Shown: positions 2,218 through 63,580 of the stretch, one piece after another
How the letters are laid out: every line of letters starts with the position of its first letter
How positions within the stretch are numbered: position 1 is the stretch's first letter
From: Branchiostoma floridae
Lineage: Eukaryota; Chordata; Leptocardii; Amphioxiformes; Branchiostomatidae
Length of the DNA stretch: 64,000 nt
Assembly (NCBI RefSeq): GCF_000003815.2
Contig: NC_049997.1
Location: 7,786,306-7,850,305 of the forward strand
Direction of reading: 5' to 3'
Notes under the pieces: model-generated
Database searches by the model: none
The model's input: only the letters and a program-made list of their open reading frames with translations
Told to the model about the DNA's origin: nothing
Translations under genes and position numbers: made by a program

Positions 2218-2286
2218 AAGTTTGTGCTTCATATTTAATAGGTTATTCGAGTCGCGTTCATCGCATTCTTGGCAGTAGAAAGAGCA

Positions 2287-4984
2287 ATGGCGAACACTAG
2301 CAGGTTGGAACGGGACCTAGTTCCTGCAACCTTCAGTTTACTGACTCTGTTTGGCGTTGTCGGAAACCTCCTGGTTATCTTGGTGATTCTCCAAAGCAGG
2401 CGTCTCCGGACACGGCTGAATCTCTTCATCGTGAACATCGCTGTGAGTGACCTGATCTTCACGGCGCTGTACGGCCCGGTGTCGGCCGTGTCGGTGGCGC
2501 GGTCGGGCGGCCTCAGGGACCACGCCGTCTGCGTCGTGACGGGGATCGTCGGGCTGCTGAGCTGTTACGAGTCGGTCCTGTCCGCGGTGCTGATTGCCGT
2601 GAGCCGCTGCGTCCGCATCACCAGGAGTCACCGTTACGACGAGCTGTTCTCTCGTAAAAGGTGATTTTTTTCAATTTTAGCCAATGCTTTTTATTGCAGC
2701 ATATAGCTTTACAGTAATATCTCATTCTGAGGTAAAGAAAAATTAAGAAATAGAAGGAAGGAAGGTAAAGAATGAGAGAAAGCAAACGAAAAAGAAAGAT
2801 TCCGTACTAACCATAACGTATGATTGTTGTCCGCATCACCAAGAGTCACCGTTACGACGAGCTGTTCTCTCGTGAAAGGTGATTTTTTTCCGAATATCTT
2901 TCTATACCTTCTCATGGCAGCATACGAAAAGTGATAGAGTGGTGCCATACTTAGATTAGACAGTAGAGGCGATGAAACAAATACAGTATTCTGTACTCAA
3001 CACTTGGATGAAATCTCACCCGATATTGACAGCTGAGTTAAGCCTGGTTTGCGGCCTTTTAACAAGATTGTGTTGTATACCCTAGACGGGTATCTTGTGA
3101 TCTCCGTATGATAACTAATTACAGGGTAAAAGAAAACTGAATAGCGTATACAGTAAATGGCAACGTCGTACTAAGCTAAATTTAAAAGGAATGAGGGCAT
3201 GTGCATTACATCAGCAATTCTACCTACAGTGACTTGTGATGAATCCAAATCCCAAGCCCTGTAGATATAACGTTATCATGTATAAACAAAGTAGCATTGA
3301 ATGTTGTAACTGACATATTTCATACTAATACACCTGGCCAATTACTCATTGTTTGTTGGGGACATCAACTTGTGCTCACCTTCCCCCTTCTCTATATCAC
3401 TCTTTCTGGTGCACGTGTGTCTGCACGTACAAGTTCCTGTAATAGCAATATAAGACAGAGCAGATTGCTTTTCTATTTACACTCAGTAAACGTTAATTTT
3501 TTTGTTTCAACTTTGAGTATCATCGACCGAGGTACTTTGTGGGAAATGTATGGCGGGGGAAACGCCGCACACAGTTAGCCCCAATCATCCACTGATGTTT
3601 ACGCTTGATTAGTCTCAGTATGCAACTATCACTTTGTTTGATACATGAGTAAAGACATTGCTCTCGAGTAAACAAGTTGTTGTAATAGGAAACCGTTCAT
3701 CATTTTCATCTGGCTCTATTTCTGGAACAGGTACATAAAACGGACTCATATTCAAAGCGTAACCGGGCGCATCGTTGAATCGTTGAATTTTCTAATGTAA
3801 ATCTCGTTAAAATCTTGTTGGTTTGAAATCACCGTTACGACGGTCCGGCTGCGCAGCTTTCCGGAAGGCTAGGGAAAAGAATTATAAACTCCTATAAGAC
3901 ATCATGACATCATAAACTCCTATAAGACATCATAAGATTCATGGGCAAAATTAGTGTATATTTCTAAGTATACATTTCAATTTTCCATCTTCCACATCCC
4001 AGCAGTTTGGAAATGTGACCTCACCCAAGGCTTAGCAAGAGAGAGAAGGAGATTAAGACTAAGCTTGATAACAACCATGTTCAAATACAATTCAATCACT
4101 ACAATTGGATTAAAAAAAACGGATATTTACTTCCGAACGTTTCAAATGAGATCGATCACTCTTCTTCAGCGTCACTAGAATGACGCTGAAGAAGAGTGAT
4201 GGATGTCACTCGAAAGGTCCAGAAGAAAATGCCCTCTTTGTATCCAGTTATAGAGATTGAATTGTATTTGAATATTGCTTACCTGGATGTCTAACCTTCA
4301 TAAACGTATATAACAACCATATTTTATCTTTTTTACTTCTGAAGGTGTGCGTTGCTTGTGTCAGTTTCCTGGGTGGTGGCCTTCCTTCTTACAACGCCCC
4401 TGCTGTCTGGGTTCGGCAAGCCAGGGTTCAACCCGATACTTCTGACATGTGACTACGACATCCTTGCATCCTTCAACTACATCGTCAGCATCGTGCTCCC
4501 ACTTGCCATCATCTGCAATGTTATCATCATCGTGTCATACGCCTTGATCTACCATAAAGTCAAAGCGTCATCAACTCGCATGCGCGGAAAAAGGACGAAC
4601 TCGAAAGAGAAGAAAATCCCGCCCATCGTTTTGAGCCAGATCAAGAACATGGCAGCGATATACATCGCCTTTAACATCTGCGTTGCGCCTGAGGTTCTAA
4701 TGGGCATTGTCACGCACAAGACTGGGGACAGCATGCGACTCCTGAACCTTGTGGCAAGGATAGTTTTCACGTGTAATTCCTGTGTGAACCCGATCATTTA
4801 CACCGCTGGAAACAAGGAGTTCCGGACTGAGCTCAAGACTCTATGGGAATATGTGTTCCATGGAGGTCAGAAACGCGAACCAAACGTTGTGGAAAGGATC
4901 AGCATGAAGACACTGAGTCTAGGAGAACAGGACACTCCTCAGAGGTTTTCCTCCAATTCCATTGTACAGGAAACCCGTCTGTAA
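2287..4984 (+). CDS. Orphan class A (rhodopsin-like) GPCR, tandem copy 1
   Basis: Two exons, 2287-2660 and 4345-4984, joined in phase 2 (AG|G, Arg), give 337 residues. A seven-helix receptor is visible: TM1 with GNLLVIL, TM2 with NIAVSDL, the TM3 cysteine in HAVC, IAVSRC in place of the DRY motif, TM4 tryptophan in SVSWVV, an ECL2 cysteine in LLTCDY, TM5 with LPLAII, TM6 FNICVAPE (no Trp in the CWxP position) and TM7 NPIIY. It ends in ETRL, a class I PDZ-ligand pattern. The start was set at MANTSRLERD because all three copies share it. Overall wording resembles melatonin/GPR84/Tre1-moody type receptors; the ligand is unknown. There is no TM7 lysine of opsins. Its 1.68-kb intron is enlarged by a partial exon copy and a foldback element; copies 2 and 3 have 180-bp introns. 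Confidence 0.85.
2829..2889 (+). pseudogene. Partial copy of GPCR exon 1 (3' end plus splice donor)
   Basis: About 60 bp repeat the last coding stretch of exon 1 (coding VRIT-SHRYDELFSR) with its GTGATT donor and following T-run. It differs from 2609-2668 at only a few bases. There is no start and no upstream part of the exon, so it is a duplicated fragment within intron 1, although the donor is intact. Confidence 0.8.
3330..3760. repeat. Second copy of the 1.1-1.47 kb segment
   Basis: See 1090-1470: the same ordered matches occur here inside the first intron of GPCR copy 1. Confidence 0.6.
3887..3937 (+). repeat. Short tandem duplication
   Basis: The phrase 'ataaactcctataagacatca' style unit of about 27 bp occurs twice in direct succession. 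Confidence 0.7.
4083..4310. mobile_element. Foldback element with hammerhead-like core (intron of GPCR copy 1)
   Basis: The block is inverted around 4176-4180: 'cactcttcttcagcgtca' faces 'tgacgctgaagaagagtg', and 'caattcaatcactaca' faces the 'tagagattgaattg' end. The right half matches 35217-35310. At 4186-4215 the order is CTGAAGA, a hairpin (GAGTGA, loop TGGATG, TCACTC) and GAAA. No coding region is present. It may derive from the terminal repeats of a Penelope-like retroelement, which are known to carry hammerhead motifs; that assignment is inference. Confidence 0.55.
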
Positions 4985-6545: not shown

Positions 6546-7252
6546 ATAGAACGAAGTAGTTTTTTCAAGGCTCATGTATTTGATCTCTTGTTGACCATTT
6601 CTTTAGTCGCCTTGGCTTCTGTACCATATTATAACATAGTACAAGAACATGAATACTTAAAAAATACTTTATTATAATCTGTGTTACCCTGAAGTTAATC
6701 TGTGACAATCACCATCAATTCCCACTGAAGAATTTACTCTGATGTTGAGGTCTTTTTGAATAGTTACTTATGTACTCCACTTTGTGACATTTCAGTTGTC
6801 ATTTCTTGAGTGTAGCATATTTTCGTTTTAGGATAATGTTAGAAAAGCTTTTAAGAACATTCAGTCGATACAACCTTCAAACGCATAAAGGTAGCTAAGA
6901 AAGCCGGTCCTTTTTGATCAAGACCTCCGAATGACGAGAGCCTATTTTTTTAGGTCGGCATAGAAATTTAAAACATGGTGGTAGTTACGAAACGAAATAA
7001 CCATCCTCTTCAAAAAAAAAAGCAACCACGGGATGATCCAAATATAACAGAAAATGTTAACCCTATTTGTTCTGGCTTTCTCGTATTCAAAGGACAAACA
7101 TACCCGTACATATAATTGTTCCAATGCCAGGGGGTGGGATTATGGTAGCTATCTCCTAGCGACAGATTAGTACTTCCTGTCAGCTTACGTTGGTCGTGGC
7201 TACTCCATTAATATTCATGTATTAGCAAGAGAAGGCGCATTTGAGACAAGAC
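6546..7252. other. 5' flank of GPCR copy 2, duplicated before copy 3
   Basis: This flank matches about 9270-9952, including 'gtacaagaacatgaatactt', 'tgtgacatttcagttgtcat' and the proximal promoter 'ggattatggtagctatctc'. The duplication unit for copies 2 and 3 is thus about 2.7 kb. A GGATTA (Otx-type homeodomain core) is present in both proximal promoters (near 7137 and 9837). Confidence 0.55.
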
Positions 7253-8440
7253 ATGGCGAACACTAGCAGGTTGGAACGAGACTTAGTTCCAGCAACCTTC
7301 AGTTTACTGACTCTGTTTGGCGTTGTCGGAAACCTCCTGGTTATCTTGGTGATTCTCCAAAGCAGGCGTCTCCGGACACGGCCGAATCTGTTCATCGTGA
7401 ACATCGCTGTGAGTGACCTGATCTTCACGGCGCTGTACGGCCCGGTGTCGGCAGTGTCGGTGGCGCGGTCGGGCGGCCTCAGGGACCACGCCGTCTGCGT
7501 CGTGACGGGGATCGTCGGGCTGCTGAGCTGTTACGAGTCGGTCCTGTCCGCGGTGCTGATTGCTGTGAGCCGCTGCGTCCGCATCACCAGGAGTCACCGC
7601 TACGACGAGCTCTTCTCTCGTAAAAGGTGATTGTTTATAATTTTTACCCAATTATGTTATTACAAAATATAGCAATTGACAGTGGTACCACATTCTGAGC
7701 TAAAGAGAAAGAAAGTCAGAAGTAGAAAGAAAGAAGAAAAATAACGAGGGAAAGAAGCAAAAGAGAGATTCCGTACTAACTATAACGTATGTACTTGCCT
7801 TCGAAGGTGCGTGCTGTTTGTCTCACTTTCCTGGGTGGTGGCCTTCCTTTGCATAAGTCCCCTACTAGCTGGATTCGGCAAGCCAGGGTTCAACTCGATT
7901 CTCCTGACATGTGACTACGACACCGTTGAATCGTTCCCCTACATCGTCAGTTTCATGCTCCCAGTTGCCATACTTTGTAACGTAGTCATCATCGTTTCGT
8001 ACGTCTTAATCTACCGTAAAGTTAAAGCGTCGTCAACTCGCGTACGCGGAAAGAGGACGAAGCAAAACAAAATCCCGCCCATGGTTTTGAGTCAGATCAA
8101 GAACATGGCAGCAATATACATCGCCTTCAACATTTGCGTGACGCCAGAGGTTCTAGTGGATATTGTCACGTACGAGACTGGGGATAGTTTACGAGTCCTA
8201 AACCTCGTGTCAAGGATAGTTTTCACGTGTAATTCCTGTGTGAACCCGATTATTTACACCGCTGGAAACAAGGAGTTCCGGACTGAGCTCAAGACTCTAT
8301 GGGGACATGTGTTCCATGGAGGTCAGAAACACGAACGAAACGTTGTGGAAAGGATCAGCATGAAGACACTGAGTCTAGGAGAACAGGACACTCCTCAGAG
8401 GTTTTCATCCAATTGCGTTGTACAGGAAACCCGTCTGTAA
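7253..8440 (+). CDS. Orphan class A GPCR, tandem copy 2
   Basis: Exons 7253-7626 and 7807-8440 join in phase 2 and give 335 residues. The receptor landmarks are those of copy 1: SRC for DRY, NPIIY, and a C-terminal ETRL. Exon 1 differs from copy 1 almost only by silent changes and one Leu-to-Pro (RPNLF). Exon 2 is clearly diverged from copy 1 but very close to copy 3 (for example AFLCISPLLAGFG and FMLPVAILCNV). The third intracellular loop is two residues shorter than in copy 1. The ATG in 'acaagacatggcg' is shared with copy 3. Expressed status is unknown, but both exons are open with good splice sites. Confidence 0.85.
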
Positions 8441-9952
8441 ACATAGCCTTCAGACTCGCTATGTTATTTCTTTGTAAGTAAGGATATGTATACTACTGAT
8501 ATCCCAACAGTTGTAATATACATATATGCCACTAAGGCACCATGCAGTAATGACAAATAAGTATTCTAAAGTTTTCTGTTGCTTTTGTAAATGCAATGCT
8601 TAAGCAGGTCATTTTTTAGATGAAAATTTTAATCTATAAATGCTCTGACCTATTTCACCTTTTACTTTTATGTATGCTGAAAGAAGGTACGTCATGCAAC
8701 GAGATCAAGAGATGACTTCGACTCAGCGAACCATCAGTATGAAAGACCTAATTATATCTAATCTCATTCCACCCTCTTGGATGAATGAATTTTCTACCTC
8801 AAAGTTGCAGTGGCGCTGAGGGTGGCAGACACTTCGGATGATTGGTATAAGAAGGCATGTGTTTGCAGCTGCAGCAATGGTTGTAAACCTTTATGAAGTG
8901 GGAACAATAACAGCTTGATCCAGTTGTTATTACGGTCAGTGCGTATTTATGTCTAATATTTCACAGGAACAGAACCGCAAGCGCACGCGTTTCAGTTCAC
9001 CACGAGAGCCTTTTGAGTATTACATAACACCGAGTGTAGTCCTTGAAAAGCTATAGGATTGAAAGAAATTGGTGGGTTATTTTCCTCTCGAGGTTGGTCA
9101 AATTGGCATCCAGCATTTTGGAAGCGATTATAGCTATAGAGGAATCGTTAAAGGAGCTTAATCATGATGACTAAATTTATGTATTGCCTTCGACTTGGTC
9201 AAATTGAGTCATACATGTATCGATCGACAAAATGTGATTCTTATCAACTTGTTGAGACGTATAAACAGTAGTGGGGTTTTTTCAAGACTCATGTATTTGA
9301 TCTCTCGTTTACCATTTCTTTATGCGCTTGGCTTCTGTGCCATATTATAACAAGAGCATAGTACAAGAACATGAATACTTAAAAAAGACTTTATTTTAAT
9401 CTGTGTAACCCTGAAGTTAATCTGTGACAATCACCATTGTTTCCCTCTGACGCATTTACTTTGATCCTGAGGTCTTTTTGAATAGTTACGTATGTACTCC
9501 ACTTTGTGACATTTCAGTTGTCATTTCTTGAACGTAGCATATTACCGTTTTAGAATAATGTTAGAAAAGCTTCTAAGAACATTCAGTCGATACAACCGTC
9601 AAACGCATAAAGGTAGCTAAGACAGTCGATCCTTTTTTATCAAGACCTCGGAATTACGAAAGCTTTTCTTAGGTCGGCATAGATTTTAAGTGGTAGTTAC
9701 GAAACCCAAGAACCATCCTCTGAAACCACAGGATGATCCAAATAGAACTGAAAATGTTAAGCATATTTGTTAGGGCTTTCTTGTATCCAAAGGACAAACA
9801 TACCCGTACAAAACATTGTTCCAATGCCAGGCGGTTGGATTATGGTAGCTATCTCCTAGCGACAGATTAGTGCTTCCTGTCAGCTTATGTCGGTCGTGGC
9901 TACTCCATTAATATTCATGTCTTAGCACGAGAAGGCGCATTTGAGACAAGAC
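8441..9952. other. Intergenic between GPCR copies 2 and 3
   Basis: The first part repeats the 3' flank of copy 1 and the second part repeats the 5' flank of copy 2. No additional gene is seen. Confidence 0.6.
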
Positions 9953-11137
9953 ATGGCGAACACTAGCAGGTTGGAACGGGATCTAGTTCCAGCAACCTTC
10001 AGTTTACTGACTCTGTTTGGCGTTGTCGGAAACCTCCTGGTTATCCTCGTGATTCTCCAAAGCAGGCGTCTCCGGACACGGCTGAATCTCTTCATCGTGA
10101 ACATCGCTGTGAGTGACCTGATCTTCACGGCGCTGTACGGCCCGGTGTCCGCCGTGTCGGTGGCGCGGTCGGGCGGCCTCAGGGACCACGCCGTCTGCGT
10201 CGTGACGGGGATCGTCGGGCTGCTGAGCTGTTACGAGTCGGTCCTGTCCGCGGTGCTGATTGCTGTGAGCCGCTGCGTCCGCATCACCAGGAGTCACCGG
10301 TACGACGAGCTCTTCTCTCGTAAAAGGTGATTTGTTTTTCTTTTAGTCTTGCCATTTTACTGTGGATTATTGCATTACTTTGGTATCACATTATTAGCTA
10401 AAGAGAAAGAACAGAAAAATAGAAAGAATGAAGGAATTGCATGAGAGAAAAGAAGCGAAGGAGAGACATTCCGTACTAACCATAAGGTATGTACTTGCTT
10501 TCAAAGGTGCGTGCTGTTTGTCTCACTTTCCTGGTTGGTGGCCTTCCTTTGCATAAGTCCCCTACTAGCTGGATTCGGCAAGCCAGGGTTCAACTCAATG
10601 CTTCTGACATGTGATTACGACACCGTTGAATCGTTCCCCTACATCGTCAGTTTCATGCTCCCAGTTGCCATACTTTGTAACGTAGTCATCATCGTATCGT
10701 ATGTCCTGATCTACCGTAAAGTCAAAGCATCATCAACTCGCGTACACGGAAAGAAGACGAAGTCGAAGCAAAACAAAATCCCGCCCATGGTTTTGAGCCA
10801 GATCAAGAACATGGCAGCAATATACATCGCCTTCAACATTTGCGTGACGCCAGAGGTTCTAGTAGGTATTGTCACGTACGAGACTGGGGATAGTTTACGA
10901 GTCCTGAACCTCGTGTCAAGGATAGTTTTCACGTGTAATTCCTGTGTGAACCCGATCATTTACACCGCTGGAAACAAGGAGTTCCGGACTGAGCTCAAGA
11001 CTCTATGGGAATATGTGTTCCATGGAGGTCAGAAACACGAACCCGCTGCGGAAAGAATCAGCATGAAAACCCTGAGTCTTGGAGAACAGGACACTCCTCA
11101 GAGGTTTTCCTCCAATGTACAGGAAACAGCTCTGTAA
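9953..11137 (+). CDS. Orphan class A GPCR, tandem copy 3
   Basis: Exons 9953-10326 and 10507-11137 join in phase 2 and give 334 residues. Exon 1 is nearly identical to copies 1 and 2; exon 2 resembles copy 2. It has the SRC variant at the end of TM3, NPIIY in TM7 and the positively charged third loop KKTKSKQNK. The tail ends ETAL instead of ETRL, still a class I PDZ-ligand pattern (T-x-L). The tail is shortened around HEPAAERIS. All frames are open, so it appears to be a functional gene. Confidence 0.85.
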
Positions 11138-57442: not shown

Positions 57443-60400
57443 CTAACCAGATGTTCCTTTCACAACATCTTCCAAACTCATCCTCTGCAGAGAGATTGTC
57501 TCATACGCATGCCCCTCCCCCTTTTCGAACAGACAGGCGACCTTGGTCACTCCCCCTTCCTCGTACGCTGCAAGGTCAGAGTACGCGCTCGGCCCCTTGT
57601 GAAGCACGAGACCCTCACTCCATGTCCGACACCCGTCTTTGCTGACCTTGATGGACATGTTCTCACGGAGGGAGAGATGGTTTGGGTTGGCGAACAGGAC
57701 CCAGGTTTCGAACTCTGACCCTTCGGGACCGGTCAGGTTAGATGGAGGTGTGGCAGCAACGACAGAACCCTGCAACATACAAAAATGATTAAATATCAAC
57801 AAATCAAAAAGACACCAAAATTCACCATTTAGTGAAAATATTGTGTTATGATAAAGCTTTAAAAATGTCATAATAAAGTTTATTATAACAGGCTTCATAT
57901 TTCTGGTTCTTGAACTACACGGCTCCACCAGCAAGCTTTATATAAATCATAAACTTTAATTGATGGACAGTCTTTTGTTTGCCATATTGGCCTCACTTTT
58001 GATCTATCATGTCCCTTAAGAACCCAAAAGCTGACCTGACATTCGCCATAGTTCTTGACAGTCGGCATGACGGGGCCGGTCTTACACGGCTCCACCAGCA
58101 AGCTTTATATAAATCATTAATTATGATGGACAGTCTTTTGTTTGCCACATTGGCCTCGGTTTTGATCTATCAAGTCTGTTATTGCATTAAGATGTAAACC
58201 CCAAGCTGACCTGACATCCCCCGTAGTTCTTGACAGTCGGCATGACGGGTCCAGTCTTACACGGCTCCACCAGAGAGTCCACCAGCTGTCCCGGGGAGAA
58301 CGTCAGCCCGCCATCCTCGCTAAAGGACTGCTGCCGGCGAGCGTGCGGCCCAAGGGTACGGATGTTCAGACACAGCGAGGAGGAGCCATCTTTTTTCAGA
58401 ATCTCTACTGCCTAAAAAAAGAGTACATGCATATAGCGTTTAAAATCCAAACTTCTGTCATTTTTATTGCACAGCAATAATGATTTTCAGGACAAAAAGA
58501 TATTATATCACTTTAAATCTACTAAAACCCCAGTGTGCGGATGTTCACACAGAACGAGGAACTCATCTTTCTTCAGAATCTCTTAACTGCCAAAAATTAA
58601 AGAGAACATATATTAAACTGTTTAAAAGAGCAACTTCTGTTTGTTTTATTACATGGCAACATTGATCTTAAGAACAAAAACATCTCTTTTACTTGTAACT
58701 GGAAACTATGTGAAACCACTGCCCGCGCACCCAAAAAAGTCTAGGTTCGGCAGGTTTTTCTAGGGTAGGTCGGGAAACAGGAAACACAACATTTTTTTTC
58801 TCCTGGCCAAGGAAGACCCCCAACTGTTCCAGTAACACCTGGTGAGCTACCTGACATTCCGAGGTGTGCAGGTTCTCTGGCCTCTCAGGGACCTTCCCAC
58901 CTAACTGCCACGTTTCACCGTGGTCGTCAGAAAACACTACAAACGAGCAGACCACACAGCCTTGCAGGAAATCTCCTGAAAGAAATGGTTTGATGATGAA
59001 TTTCCCTACATCCCTCACACCCCTTCTAGTGAGTGGTATGTCCCAGTTGAGGTAATGAACAACTTTTATCCATTTTTTGTCATTAAAAAAAACGTACTGT
59101 ACTGACATTGAAACAGATAAAAAATTGATAGTCAACAAATGTGTTTTAGTGTATGCTCCTGTCAGCAAGTTGTAAAAGTTGTAAGCCCCAGTTGAGGTAA
59201 TGAACAACTTTTATCCATTTTTTGTCATTAAAAAAAACGTACTGTACTGACATTGAAACAGATAAAAAATTGATAGTCAACAAATGTGTTTTAGTGTATG
59301 CTCCTGTCAGCAAGTTGTAAAAGTTGTAAGCCAGCAAGTTTAAAAACTGCCGTCTAGTATTGCTTACTGCATCTTCAAATGTGTTTTGTTTAGGTCTCAG
59401 GGACCATTAACATATTACTCACATGTATTACCTAAGTCTATGGGTGTTGTAAAATTGAGTTTTTCTTATTCTCGTTTATACATTTGACATCTTTTAAGAA
59501 ATCGTGAAAAAGGAAATAAAAACAGTAGAGAAAAGAAAAACAATTGAAACAATAAAAAAGAAGGAATGGAAAGATAGATGCACCTGTCTTTCTTTCATTT
59601 ATTTTTTTTCTAAAAGAAAACAAAAAAACTAATGATTTACATAGGGACATGCCACTCTCAGAACAGGGGTGGGAAGGCTGATTTTTCTCTGCACATGAAC
59701 CCACCTGGCACTCGTTTGAATGGAAGTTGTCCCCTCCCTCCGGAACCTTCCCCCCCACGTGCCAGGTGTCCCCTCCGTCATCACTATACACCACAAAGGA
59801 CCGGTTCACACAGCCTCTCAGGAAATCTCCTACAATACATACAACATAGGGGTGGGTACCAGTTCAGAAAATTCAGGTCCAGGTCCGGTTCAGGTCCAGA
59901 GGATCAGGTCCAGGTCCGGACCTGAACTGGACCTGATTCATTATGTGAAAACTTGTGAATGGACGATACTCAAAACAATGGTCCATATTGCTACAAAGAA
60001 ATCTGTTTTGTGTGCCTTAAATAAGTATTTGACTCCCACTGGCATTTTAAAAATCCTACAAGGCTATCTACCTCTCTACCATTGACTGTAAAAGTTGGTA
60101 AAGATGACTATAGAGTCTAGTGCTTTGCTCTATTTTATTATTATTATTTGCCTAGACCGGTAACCCCGAAAACGTGCGAATGCCTGGCTACATAATCAGT
60201 TCAATTTCCGATCGGTCCAACATCCGGTCCACGGAATTTTTTCAGAGCCGTTTTTTCTTGACCGGTCCAATGAGAAAAAACGGTTTTGTACCGGTACACC
60301 GTACCAGTACCCAGCCCTAATACAACAGACTGGAGATGGGTTGCCATGTTAGGCTGTTCGATCCCGCATGTTTCTTTCTCCTCTGTTGTTACATTTGGTT

Positions 60401-63400
60401 CCCACACAAACCCTGCGAGTAACAGACCATGTGCCACACTGTGAGTAACAGGCTAAAGAAACAAGAAATTACACAGGGATATCAATCTCAGAGATTTGAG
60501 GACGAATCATGAAAAGAAAAGGGGGAGTAGTGTAACAGTGGGGGGGGGGTTAAGTAGTGCCAAACAGCCAAGCATTTTGGCTGATCAGCCTTTTCTGGCA
60601 TAGTGGAAATCCAAACGACACTGTTATCTCTAATTCGTTTCTTTAAAAAGATCATTTCAGTGGAAGCTGCTTTCTAGATTTTAACCTCAACTGAGACATA
60701 CCACAAACCATGCAATGTCCATTTTGTCAAAACTATACATTCTGAAATGATTGGAATTACATGAGATTGAATGAAGTGAAAATAATCAGCCATCAAATCA
60801 TTGTTAGCCTTCAAAAGCATCTGTAAGCAGCATATAGCAGCATATAGCAATTACTTTTAAATATCGCAAAGCAACACAGCATTTAAAGTTTGAAAAAAAA
60901 CAAAACAAGAACATAGTACTGTTTTTGATGTTTAATTTTGAAGTATAATAAATCCAGATCACTGCAAAGAATGATAGATTTTGTGATGGTGATGGTGATT
61001 GTAATTTTCTGTTTGCCATGGACTCGTCCACTTTGAAAGGGGTTGACATTGAAACGTTTTCAGAAATGGAAAGAGAAAATAATCTAATGATAATGATGGC
61101 TATCTAAAATGAGAGGGAGGATGCACCCTTACAAAATTCCACAATGAGAGTCCACCCCTGCTTTTCAGAATGGATCAGCCCAACAGCATCTGCAGAGAGA
61201 ATTAGTCAGATCTTTTCTATGTTAATTTTGAGTTTGTGTTGATCATGACTACGCAGGATATTCTAAAGGGACGTACTTGAGAACAAAAACCACCAGACCA
61301 ACTCTAAAGTCCGTCTGAACCAGGAAGTGGGGTAGGACCGTGGTCTTGGAGCTATCATTGAATTGTAGTGAAAAATGGAAAAAAAGATTAAAAAGTTTTC
61401 TCGGTCATTTTCATGAGCATTAGTCACACAGCTGATAAAACTTACTTGAGCTATTTGAATGAAAGATACAAAACTGTATCAAGGTAACGACATGGAAAAA
61501 TAGAGCAGAAAAACTGTCTGATTCACATTGTCTGATCAGGAAAAACTGTGACATGGACTAAAATTGCTATTTCTTGCTGGATTTGTCTGGAAAGCCAAGC
61601 TGCTGTAGCCTGAGTGCCATGTTCTGTAGTCACTGCTGGCTTAATACTTTCACTGTTCCCTGGTTAGCCCTAGGTCACATTTTCTAAACGGGCCCTGGAC
61701 GGTGTTGCGCCCCGAACCGTGCCTTGCCACAAACCGTGCCTATGCACGGTTTGGGGCAGTCCCCGCGTGCCCCAAACCGTGCCTGGGGAAAAAGCATGGT
61801 TTGGGACACGCGAGGACTGCCCCGTGTCGTGCCCAAGACTATAGATTTAACCACAAGGCACGGTTCGGGGTAAAATACAGATTCAGTTCGTTGTGTCAGA
61901 CCTCAGTGCACAATTATCTGAGGCACAGTTTGTGCCCCGAACCATGCTTTGCCCCAAACCGTGCCTGGGCACAGTTCGGGGCAGTCCCTGTGTGTCCTAA
62001 ACCGTGCTTGATCAAAGTGCAGCTGGACGTTGTCATGTTTATATGTGGTATATTTTGTAACATAAATGGAATGCACTATAGACGTGCTAAGTTCTCGCAA
62101 GATCAAGCCTTATTTGGAAATGATGGGCGTGAATAATTAATTTTCACTACCCCGTCAGTCATAGTGATTGACAGCGCTTCTGGGCACAGACCTGGGCAGT
62201 CGGGCTGTGCCCCGTTCCGTGCCTGAATGGGCACGGAATGGGGCAGGCACGGAACGGGGCATAACAGACGGGCAGTTTTCAGGAACAAAAAGTATGATAT
62301 AAAAGACGCCGAATTACACAAGACGTAAAGAGAATACTTTAGTAGTTATGGACATTATTTGTGTATTTTTTTTTAATGTATACATTTCTATTTTTCATTT
62401 CCACAAACAGCCTGGCCGGGCCCTGGTTTGGAAATGTGACGTTAGCCTGCAGAAAGTATTGAGCCAGCAGTTACGACAGATGATGACAATCAGTCTAGGG
62501 CTGTCTTTTAAGCTTTAAACACATGACAGGACACTCAGTGTGAGGCCTGCACATTGCTGTCAAGCTTTTACATAGTAACTGAATATTTCTCACACAAGTA
62601 CCTTCCTCATGGGTGGAACTTTTCTTCACCATATGGTTGCCGGGAGCAACCAGACGGCCAGACTTCAGCTGAATCCCATGTCCTGGAGCTATGTAAAATA
62701 GGATTATGTTAAAAACAGCTTTAAGCTATATTTAAGACAAAATTACTCAAGTCAAAACAAAAAAAGAGAAAAACTATTCTAACCGCCACCCTATAAAATA
62801 ACAGAACACTTGATGGTTAAACAAATGAGATCAGTTATTGAATGGGTAAAAATCACATGATATCATTTTCGTATATTGCATGATGAATATATTTTTAATT
62901 TTTTTAACAACATTGCTTACTCCAATCATTAAAGAAAAAAATTATCGTTCTAATTGTAGCACTATTCAATTGCGATTGTTTGAGTCCTAAAAAAGAGTAT
63001 AGAAATGTTTTCATTACCCATAGCGAAGCAGGCCCACTGTGGATTCTCCTTGCCCAGAACTTTGTCTGTGAGATCCTCAGGGTCACTCCAGGTCAAACCA
63101 TTGTCTTTACTCTGCATGGAAAAATACACTTTTATCGTTAAATTTCAAACTCAATGCTAAAAGTCACAACTTATACTGTACATTGTAAATACTGTTAACT
63201 CTTGATATTTCTAAGTTTGTCGTTTTCTATGGACACATTTCTCTTTTCTACTGTGAATAGGTGTCAGAGTCAGATTTTGTACATTGTGTTCCCAATATGG
63301 TTTCAACTGTGAACTCAGTAATACCGCAAACTGTTTAATATTGTGTTTCATTTCATTTATCACAAAACCCTAATTAGCCCAACTGTGTTACATCATGCTG

Positions 63401-63580
63401 TGAAATTAAGGTGGCTATGATGATATCGAGTGTGATCAAAATACCTTGACGATACAGAGCCTTATTTGGTGCACACCATCCCGAATCATGTCGTGTTCCG
63501 TAACCTGCGGCGGGATCGTGCCAAACAGGAGATGGATCGTTCCATTGGTCCGGTCCACAATAGGGGTGGGATTCATACAT
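57443..63580 (-). CDS. Asp-box sialidase (exo-alpha-sialidase, GH33-like), 5' end outside the window
   Basis: Minus-strand exons: 63580-63445, 63111-63018, 62688-62602, then 59829-59705 (or its alternative 58975-58851), 58411-58211 and 57769-57443. The phases agree; about 322 residues lie in the window. Motifs in order: NPTPIVDRTNGTIHLLFG; Asp-box SKDNGLTW (47-54); the sialidase signature GHGIQLKSGRLVAPGN (about 80-95); Asp-box SDDGGDTW (122-129); Asp-box SEDGGLTF (179-186); LVEPC...CQGSVV; ETWVLFANPN; Asp-box SKDGCRTW (258-265); and GPSAYSDL with the likely catalytic Tyr (278). The FRIP/Arg N-terminal part should lie beyond 64000. The enzyme removes terminal sialic acid from glycans; the compartment cannot be told without the N-terminus. 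Overall wording is closest to lysosomal/bacterial-type Asp-box sialidases. Confidence 0.88.
57907..58012 (-). pseudogene. Broken sialidase exon copy (with flank), copy B
   Basis: Keeps only the LVEPC-coding stretch ('ggctccaccag' on the plus strand) with an internal deletion, then the flank 'caagctttatataaatcat' and 'gatggacagtcttttgtttg' shared with 58098-58175. Confidence 0.65.
58036..58175 (-). pseudogene. Broken sialidase exon copy, copy A
   Basis: 58098-58036 repeats the 3' third of the exon 58411-58211 (LVEPCKTGPVMPTVKNYG, then ECQ) and keeps the following GTCAGC donor. The 5' part of the exon is replaced by the AT-rich flank shared with copy B. No acceptor is apparent. Confidence 0.75.
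58531..58601 (-). pseudogene. Broken sialidase exon copy, copy C
   Basis: Repeats the 5' part of exon 58411-58211 ('ttcagaatctct' and 'gcggatgttca' on the plus strand) but with small insertions that put a stop in frame. Confidence 0.65.
58851..58975 (-). CDS. Sialidase alternative exon 4b
   Basis: A 125-nt exon with acceptor TTTCAG and donor GTAGCT, coding (G)DFLQGCVVCSFVVFSDDHGE and TWQLGGKVPERPENLHTSEC, Q. It has the same length and phases (1 in, 0 out) as exon 4a at 59829-59705, so it can replace it. If both are spliced together the second is read out of frame and meets a TAG after about 12 codons. It keeps the Asp-box (SDDHGETW). It differs from 4a at many residues, so it is not a recent copy. 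Confidence 0.8.
59044..59331 (+). repeat. Nearly perfect tandem duplication, period 145 bp
   Basis: From 'cagttgaggtaatgaacaac' to 'gttgtaagcc' the sequence occurs twice with no difference seen. It lies between sialidase exons 4a and 4b and is either very recent or an assembly duplication. Confidence 0.9.
59847..60319. mobile_element. hAT-type MITE, 473 bp
   Basis: The ends are TAGGGGTGGGTACCAG and its near inverse (gtaccagtacccagcccta). The flanks carry an exact 8-bp duplication ATACAACA at 59839-59846 and 60320-60327, as expected for hAT elements. Inside, 'caggtccaggtccgg' repeats. A related fragment is at about 38575-38615. It lies in a sialidase intron. Confidence 0.88.
61274..61352 (-). 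pseudogene. Possible decayed copy of the sialidase GRLV exon
   Basis: The minus strand has 'tagctccaagacc', 'ggttcagacggactttagag' and 'ttggtctggtggtt' in the order of the functional exon 62688-62602, with many changes. The match is weak. Confidence 0.3.
61710..61880. repeat. Palindromic element built on CCCCGAACCGTGCC words
   Basis: CCCCGAACCGTGCCTTG (61710-61726) is exactly inverted at 61864-61880. Between them are further pairs ('ccccaaaccgtgcc' / 'gcacggtttgggg'). It lies in a sialidase intron and is non-coding. Confidence 0.8.
61920..62260. repeat. Further GGCACGG palindromes
   Basis: At 61930-62015 variants such as 'gccccaaaccgtgcctgggc' and 'gcacagttcggggcagtcc' recur; at 62209-62260 'gccccgttccgtgcct' is inverted as 'aggcacggaacggggc' around a shorter palindrome. 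Confidence 0.75.

Follow-up and report, generated by a model that had tools for sequence, protein, structure and literature searches.

Probable mutually exclusive copies of exon 4 in a NEU5-type sialidase gene of Branchiostoma floridae

Exon 4 of a NEU5-type sialidase gene of B. floridae has likely undergone an old tandem duplication, both copies of which, 4a and 4b, would be functional and used as alternatives, one per mRNA. The two are adjacent homologous exons of equal length and phase with splice sites at their borders, and analyses of dN/dS, of random differences and of neutral drift indicated coding constraint on both, as expected of mutually exclusive exons, which 4a and 4b probably are. 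No working message can include both, which is true of many, not all, such pairs. The original prediction, that the two exons are mutually exclusive and yield two forms of the enzyme, was in part borne out: the reading frame, the selection on both copies and genome searches that found no third copy or retrocopy support the exclusivity, and its structural part was refined as described below. Mutually exclusive exons are a well-known kind of feature; what makes this pair notable is that the duplicated exon encodes the catalytic Glu of a sialidase.

Results

Gene layout

The greater part of a sialidase gene lies on the minus strand at the end of the window (the whole stretch of 64,000 nucleotides that was analysed) and includes the following exons:

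63445-63580, minus strand: exon E1, the first exon of the gene within the window; AG/GT borders, open frame, tblastn and NEU2 alignment
63018-63111, minus strand: exon E2, carrying the Asp-box-like SKDNGLTW
62602-62688, minus strand: exon E3, phase 1 at its end; region of NEU2 Y179/Y181 by alignment
59705-59829, minus strand: exon 4a, 125 nt, GDFLRGCVNRSFVVYSDDGGDTWHVGGKVPEGGDNFHSNECQ; fits Y196 and S219 of B. floridae NEU5
58851-58975, minus strand: exon 4b, 125 nt, GDFLQGCVVCSFVVFSDDHGETWQLGGKVPERPENLHTSECQ
58211-58411, minus strand: exon E5, entered in phase 0; counterpart of NEU2 R237
57443-57769, minus strand: exon E6, the last, with the stop codon; counterparts of NEU2 R304 and Y334

A further upstream exon, which encodes FRIPALVHHEGVFLAFCEARKDTYKD (FRIPA...CEARKD) and joins E1 in phase, was located outside the window (locus L007). 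Immediately past the window end, a run of N of about 2.5 kb (positions 307-2784 of L007) lies inside the gene, and the upstream exon is on its far side. Intron 3 contains repeated GC-rich units that are partly palindromic (61705-62226), including a 47-nt unit present three times with spacings of 225 and 215 nt. Elsewhere in the window, on the plus strand, a gene named by eye as GPCR-like is present in three tandem copies (2242-4984, 7226-8440 and 9926-11137), of which the first ORF is almost identical and the second more divergent.

Identity of the sialidase

Both forms of the predicted protein matched Pfam BNR_2 (4a form, 95.9 bits, E 3.5e-27; 4b form, 95.7 bits, E 4e-27), and for both the best-scoring solved structures were NEU2 chains, with chain 1snt giving 125 bits (E 3.5e-35) for the 4a form and 134.9 bits (E 3.3e-38) for the 4b form; 1vcu, a member of the PDB group of 1snt, is called human NEU2 (PMC3431349). 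A bacterial chain, 7lbu, slightly favoured the 4a form (61 against 59.1 bits). The Asp-box within exon 4 scored 25 in 4a and 29.7 in 4b against the Pfam BNR model, so that 4a falls below the cut-off of 27. By alignment to NEU2, for which residue numbers are chain positions minus 2, the catalytic set comprises the Glu in exon 4, an Arg in E5, and an Arg and a Tyr in E6, and the first Arg (FRIP) and the acid/base Asp were read by eye in the upstream exon. The gene is a NEU2/3/4-like sialidase.

NEU5 has been defined in early deuterostomes, B. floridae among them, and predicted phosphorylation sites of B. floridae NEU5 are printed as T136, Y196, S219, S254, Y353 and S388 (PMC3431349, Table 4). 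When the numbering is shifted by an offset of 76, all six printed positions are fitted by the 4a form and four of the six by the 4b form, which has Phe and Thr at the two positions that fall within exon 4. All other offsets from 60 to 94 gave fewer than three matches, and a fit of all six was found in 0 of 20,000 shuffles. On the basis of these six positions, the gene is very likely NEU5, from B. floridae or a species close to it, and the NEU5 model in the literature appears to carry 4a, since it is the 4a form that fits every printed position. Like the gene described here, B. floridae NEU5 is NEU2/3/4-like and has many exons; unlike the locus here, a second exon 4 and the word stem 'splic' are absent from the main-text passages of that source (PMC3431349).

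A genome profile search with PF13088 returned one place above the cut-off, on another contig (G000:C8:14363485-14363733, L009; 32.5 bits). This search overlooked the exons of the gene itself, which indicates that short exons escape it and that it is a poor guide to the number of sialidase genes. A search for close bacterial relatives as an outgroup yielded 22 stretches that fit a pattern, none of which was confirmed as a relative.

Reading frame and similarity of exons 4a and 4b

As originally described, exons 4a and 4b are each 125 nt long, are flanked by an AG acceptor and a GT donor, are entered in phase 1 and left in phase 0, and retain the SDD-x-G-x-TW Asp-box and a final Cys-Gln; the junction points proposed for them, 62602 at the end of E3 and 58411 at the start of E5, also fit. 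In each exon one of the three frames is open. When 4a is joined to 4b, the reading frame continues for 12 codons and then meets a TAG stop, as had been noted, and skipping 4a and 4b together leads to an early stop too, so that exactly one of the two exons is required. A message with 4a only or 4b only encodes 322 residues within the window up to the natural stop. Thus, only single-exon messages encode the full enzyme, because the lengths and phases of the exons place a premature stop in the other forms.

The two exons are identical at 85 of 125 nucleotides and at 27 of 41 complete residues, so that 14 residues differ, and 4b has no indel relative to 4a. The similarity ends at the exon borders: the exon alignment score was 64, and the 300-nt upstream and downstream flanks scored 23 and 22, with a 95th percentile of 24 for the background (200 shuffles of the upstream flanks). 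When the 4a peptide was searched against the whole genome (513,431,437 bases in 431 contigs) with E values up to 1, the matches were 4a and 4b alone (two candidates at the first filter), and this search therefore gave no third copy of the exon. No retrocopy recording a splice form was found either, as all five genome matches of the protein encoded by 4b-E5-E6 belong to this gene. Donor scores, computed with a scoring matrix, were 5.66 for 4a and 2.4 for 4b, and 1.52, -0.1, 1.35 and 2.56 for the other four donors; the 4b donor is below that of 4a, yet not below three of the four others scored.

Selection on both exons

Comparison of 4a with 4b by NG86 gave dN 0.27, dS 1.77 and a dN/dS of about 0.15, a ratio that is rough because dS is saturated; maximum likelihood returned dN 0.24 and a saturated dS of 26.2, and YN00 returned no value. 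The differences between the two exons fall at first, second and third codon positions in 11, 7 and 22 cases, respectively. When 40 random differences were introduced into either exon, at least 27 identical residues were retained in 0 of 20,000 runs for each.

One-sided drift was simulated by letting one exon evolve neutrally while the other took 10, 20 or 30 synonymous changes, with either exon as the starting point. The simulation was simple, with a fixed transition bias, without indels and with the constrained exon limited to synonymous changes. The joint outcome of no stop, eight key sites kept and at most 14 residue changes was obtained in 0 of 1500 runs for five of the six settings and in 0.33% of runs for the sixth; single criteria were looser, and the drifting exon was still open in 29-39% of runs. 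These results indicate that selection has preserved both 4a and 4b as coding sequence, a signal that speaks to the past coding use of both exons and not to their present use.

Tandem copies of exon 5 as an internal control

Small tandem duplications of exon 5 and its flanks are found at 57916-58683 of the window, which suggests that the exon 5 region is a duplication-prone stretch. They include the following copies:

58528-58590, with an intron part up to 58683, minus strand: decayed tandem copy of the exon 5 start, disrupted by two length changes of 2 nt each and by a stop
58021-58098, minus strand: partial tandem copy of the exon 5 end, about 90% alike, with an acceptor not obvious by eye

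The copy of the exon 5 start is probably younger than the 4a/4b duplication, because its intron part still aligns. It serves as a control from the same gene, in which the frame is already broken despite the probable younger age.

Predicted effect of the exon swap on the enzyme

Close to its end, exon 4 encodes a Glu that is the same in both forms, aligns to E218 of NEU2 and is the catalytic one; E218 is one of six catalytic residues and L217 one of five non-catalytic contacts of DANA (PMC3431349). At the position directly before the catalytic Glu, where NEU2 has L217, 4a has Asn and 4b has Ser, and the segment ahead of the Glu is longer here than in NEU2. L217 is not specifically conserved beyond NEU2 (PMC3431349), and a literature search returned no article linking Leu217 to sialidase and NEU2. 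At the other end of the exon, the first residues fall in Loop 4 of the active site by alignment to NEU2 (numbering of PMC3431349), and a residue inside Loop 4 is Arg in 4a and Gln in 4b, directly followed by Asn-Arg and Val-Cys, respectively. Each exon retains residues that occur in relatives and are absent from the other exon. At three of the differing sites 4b agrees with NEU2 (Gln, His and Thr). A single Asp is common to 4a and NEU2 and absent in 4b, depending on gap placement, and 4a retains a Tyr where the alignment column has S/T/Y in 100% of NEU3 and in 90.91% of NEU4 sequences (PMC3431349).

It had been proposed that the segments that differ before and after the Asp-box lie close to substrate-contacting loops. 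By alignment, this applies to the first residues of the exon, in Loop 4, and to its last, at the catalytic Glu and the L217 position, whereas the segment that follows the Asp-box does not clearly belong to a loop of the active site. The turns formed by Asp-boxes are on the other side of the protein from the active site.

Non-catalytic residues contact sialic acid at C4, at C5 and at the glycerol portion, which carry most of its natural modifications (PMC3431349). Since the non-catalytic contacts meet the parts that are commonly modified, it is a fair guess that the 4a and 4b enzymes would differ in their handling of modified sialic acids.

A predicted stem in the intron between 4a and 4b

The 729-nt intron between 4a and 4b contains two predicted stem arms and, in the loop between them, a tandem repeat:

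59644-59680, minus strand: predicted 5' arm of the stem, beginning 24 nt past the 4a donor
59009-59044, minus strand: predicted 3' arm of the stem, 33 nt ahead of exon 4b
59032-59321, minus strand: 145-nt unit present twice, head-to-tail, 98% alike

The stem was read from a single sequence. The duplex of the arms was computed at -50.6 kcal/mol, against -32.9 (sd 5.0) for 1000 shuffles, none of which was as strong. The stem is present in both the MFE and the centroid structure of the intron, whose fold was better than those of all 20 shuffled versions, and also, with 31 pairs, in the MFE structure of a 1461-nt stretch. Among pairs drawn with the same spacing from the window (4000 draws, less 13 near the stem and 8 that failed, leaving 3979; mean -21.9, sd 6.8), six were as strong, at four places, and such a stem is therefore rare, not unheard of, in the window. 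The best partner of each arm is the other arm (40-nt windows, 62601 to about 57800), and weaker partners of the 5' arm lie inside exon 4a (-40.5) and in intron 3 (-37.1). With up to three mismatches allowed, a 25-base piece of the 5' arm has a single occurrence in the genome, which speaks against a repeated element. A search of the genome with the whole intron, in which very common words were skipped, matched the intron itself alone.

A candidate branch point was read by eye about 20 nt ahead of 4b. The steric limit between a donor and a branch point is 50 nt (PMC5740500, PMC7969005), and with the stem formed, the path from the 4a donor to the candidate 4b branch point would be shorter than 50 nt. 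One scan for a docking-selector arrangement showed nothing that matched the strength of the stem. Control of the Dscam type would have one docking site pairing with competing selectors at each exon; the arms here pair best with each other, and the 5' arm has the weaker alternatives at -40.5 and -37.1.

Discussion

Readings in which the gene makes a single enzyme, or in which one copy of the exon is artefactual, were judged weaker than that of mutually exclusive functional exons. 4b might be a dead or dying duplicate, with the 4a enzyme as the only product of the gene. The printed B. floridae NEU5 positions (PMC3431349) fit 4a only, the 4b donor is weaker than that of 4a, and decay of duplicates has precedent in the same gene, where the copy of the exon 5 start is broken and that of the exon 5 end looks unusable by eye; however, 4b has neither indel nor stop, keeps its AG and GT, outscores 4a both on 1snt (134.9 against 125) and on the Asp-box model (29.7 against 25), and one-sided neutral drift failed in nearly all simulation runs, which leaves this reading improbable. 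It is less probable still that both exons are functional with one of them acting as a regulated poison or dose switch, in which double inclusion leads to decay, and not as the source of a second enzyme. Double inclusion does produce an early stop, as does double skipping, but with a poison role alone, selection at the protein level would not have maintained the frame, the Asp-box and the catalytic Glu in the two copies.

Polymorphism is very high in lancelet genomes, and together with the near-identical 145-nt tandem units (98%) between the exons this would fit an assembly artefact in which two haplotypes were placed in tandem. We consider such an artefact very improbable, because the 32% divergence of the exons and their unalignable flanks go far beyond what is generally regarded as ordinary allelic difference, and the genome search returned only these two exon matches. 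An alternative that is compatible with mutually exclusive exons concerns the stem, which may be idle in splicing, either as a chance pairing or as the remnant of a rare inverted repeat; we lean towards this view of it. Four other places in the window have equally strong pairs of the same spacing (six of 3979), and arms of about 36 nt around some 600 nt look like terminal inverted repeats, but none of 1000 shuffles was as strong, the arms lie 24 and 33 nt from the splice sites, and the 5' arm is single in the genome at up to three mismatches.

For the preferred reading of mutually exclusive functional exons, the following mechanism is proposed. The stem, whose arms closely follow 4a and closely precede 4b, would fold the 729-nt intron and bring the 4a donor too near the branch region of 4b for direct splicing of 4a to 4b, and nonsense-mediated decay would probably clear the remaining messages with double inclusion or double skipping. 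Two enzymes would result, sharing the catalytic residues and differing next to the catalytic Glu and within a loop of the active site, and they may differ in activity or in the sialic acid variants that they prefer. As a whole, the proposal that swapping the exon with the catalytic Glu gives two enzymes reading different sialic acid variants, with exclusivity enforced by a hairpin (path below 50 nt), is a tentative and rather unlikely one.

The arrangement resembles that of exons 4a and 4b of OGDH, which likewise encodes an enzyme, gives two forms through an exon duplicated long ago, and owes the exclusivity to a steric constraint within the intervening intron (PMC7969005). The exclusivity in OGDH comes from distant branch points located close to the 5' splice site (PMC7969005), whereas here the path would be shortened by the proposed stem. 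The long AG-free zone of the OGDH type is absent before 4b, as there is an AG about 30 nt upstream of 4b. Among human mutually exclusive exons, 377 clusters (60%) have, as here, lengths not divisible by three; the human clusters were validated by junction reads (PMC5740500), whereas the 4a/4b pair was read from genomic sequence. A search of the literature on sialidases or amphioxus with mutually exclusive or duplicated exons, judged mostly by title, found no earlier report.

The diversity of animal sialidases is usually given as that of the separate genes NEU1-5. If the reading of 4a and 4b as mutually exclusive exons is true, sialidase diversity would also arise within one gene, through a position beside the catalytic Glu and a loop of the active site. 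The intron between 4a and 4b would be a testable case of a hairpin that renders two exons incompatible, and since the two forms are 14 residues apart, comparing their activities would directly reveal how these positions set substrate preference.
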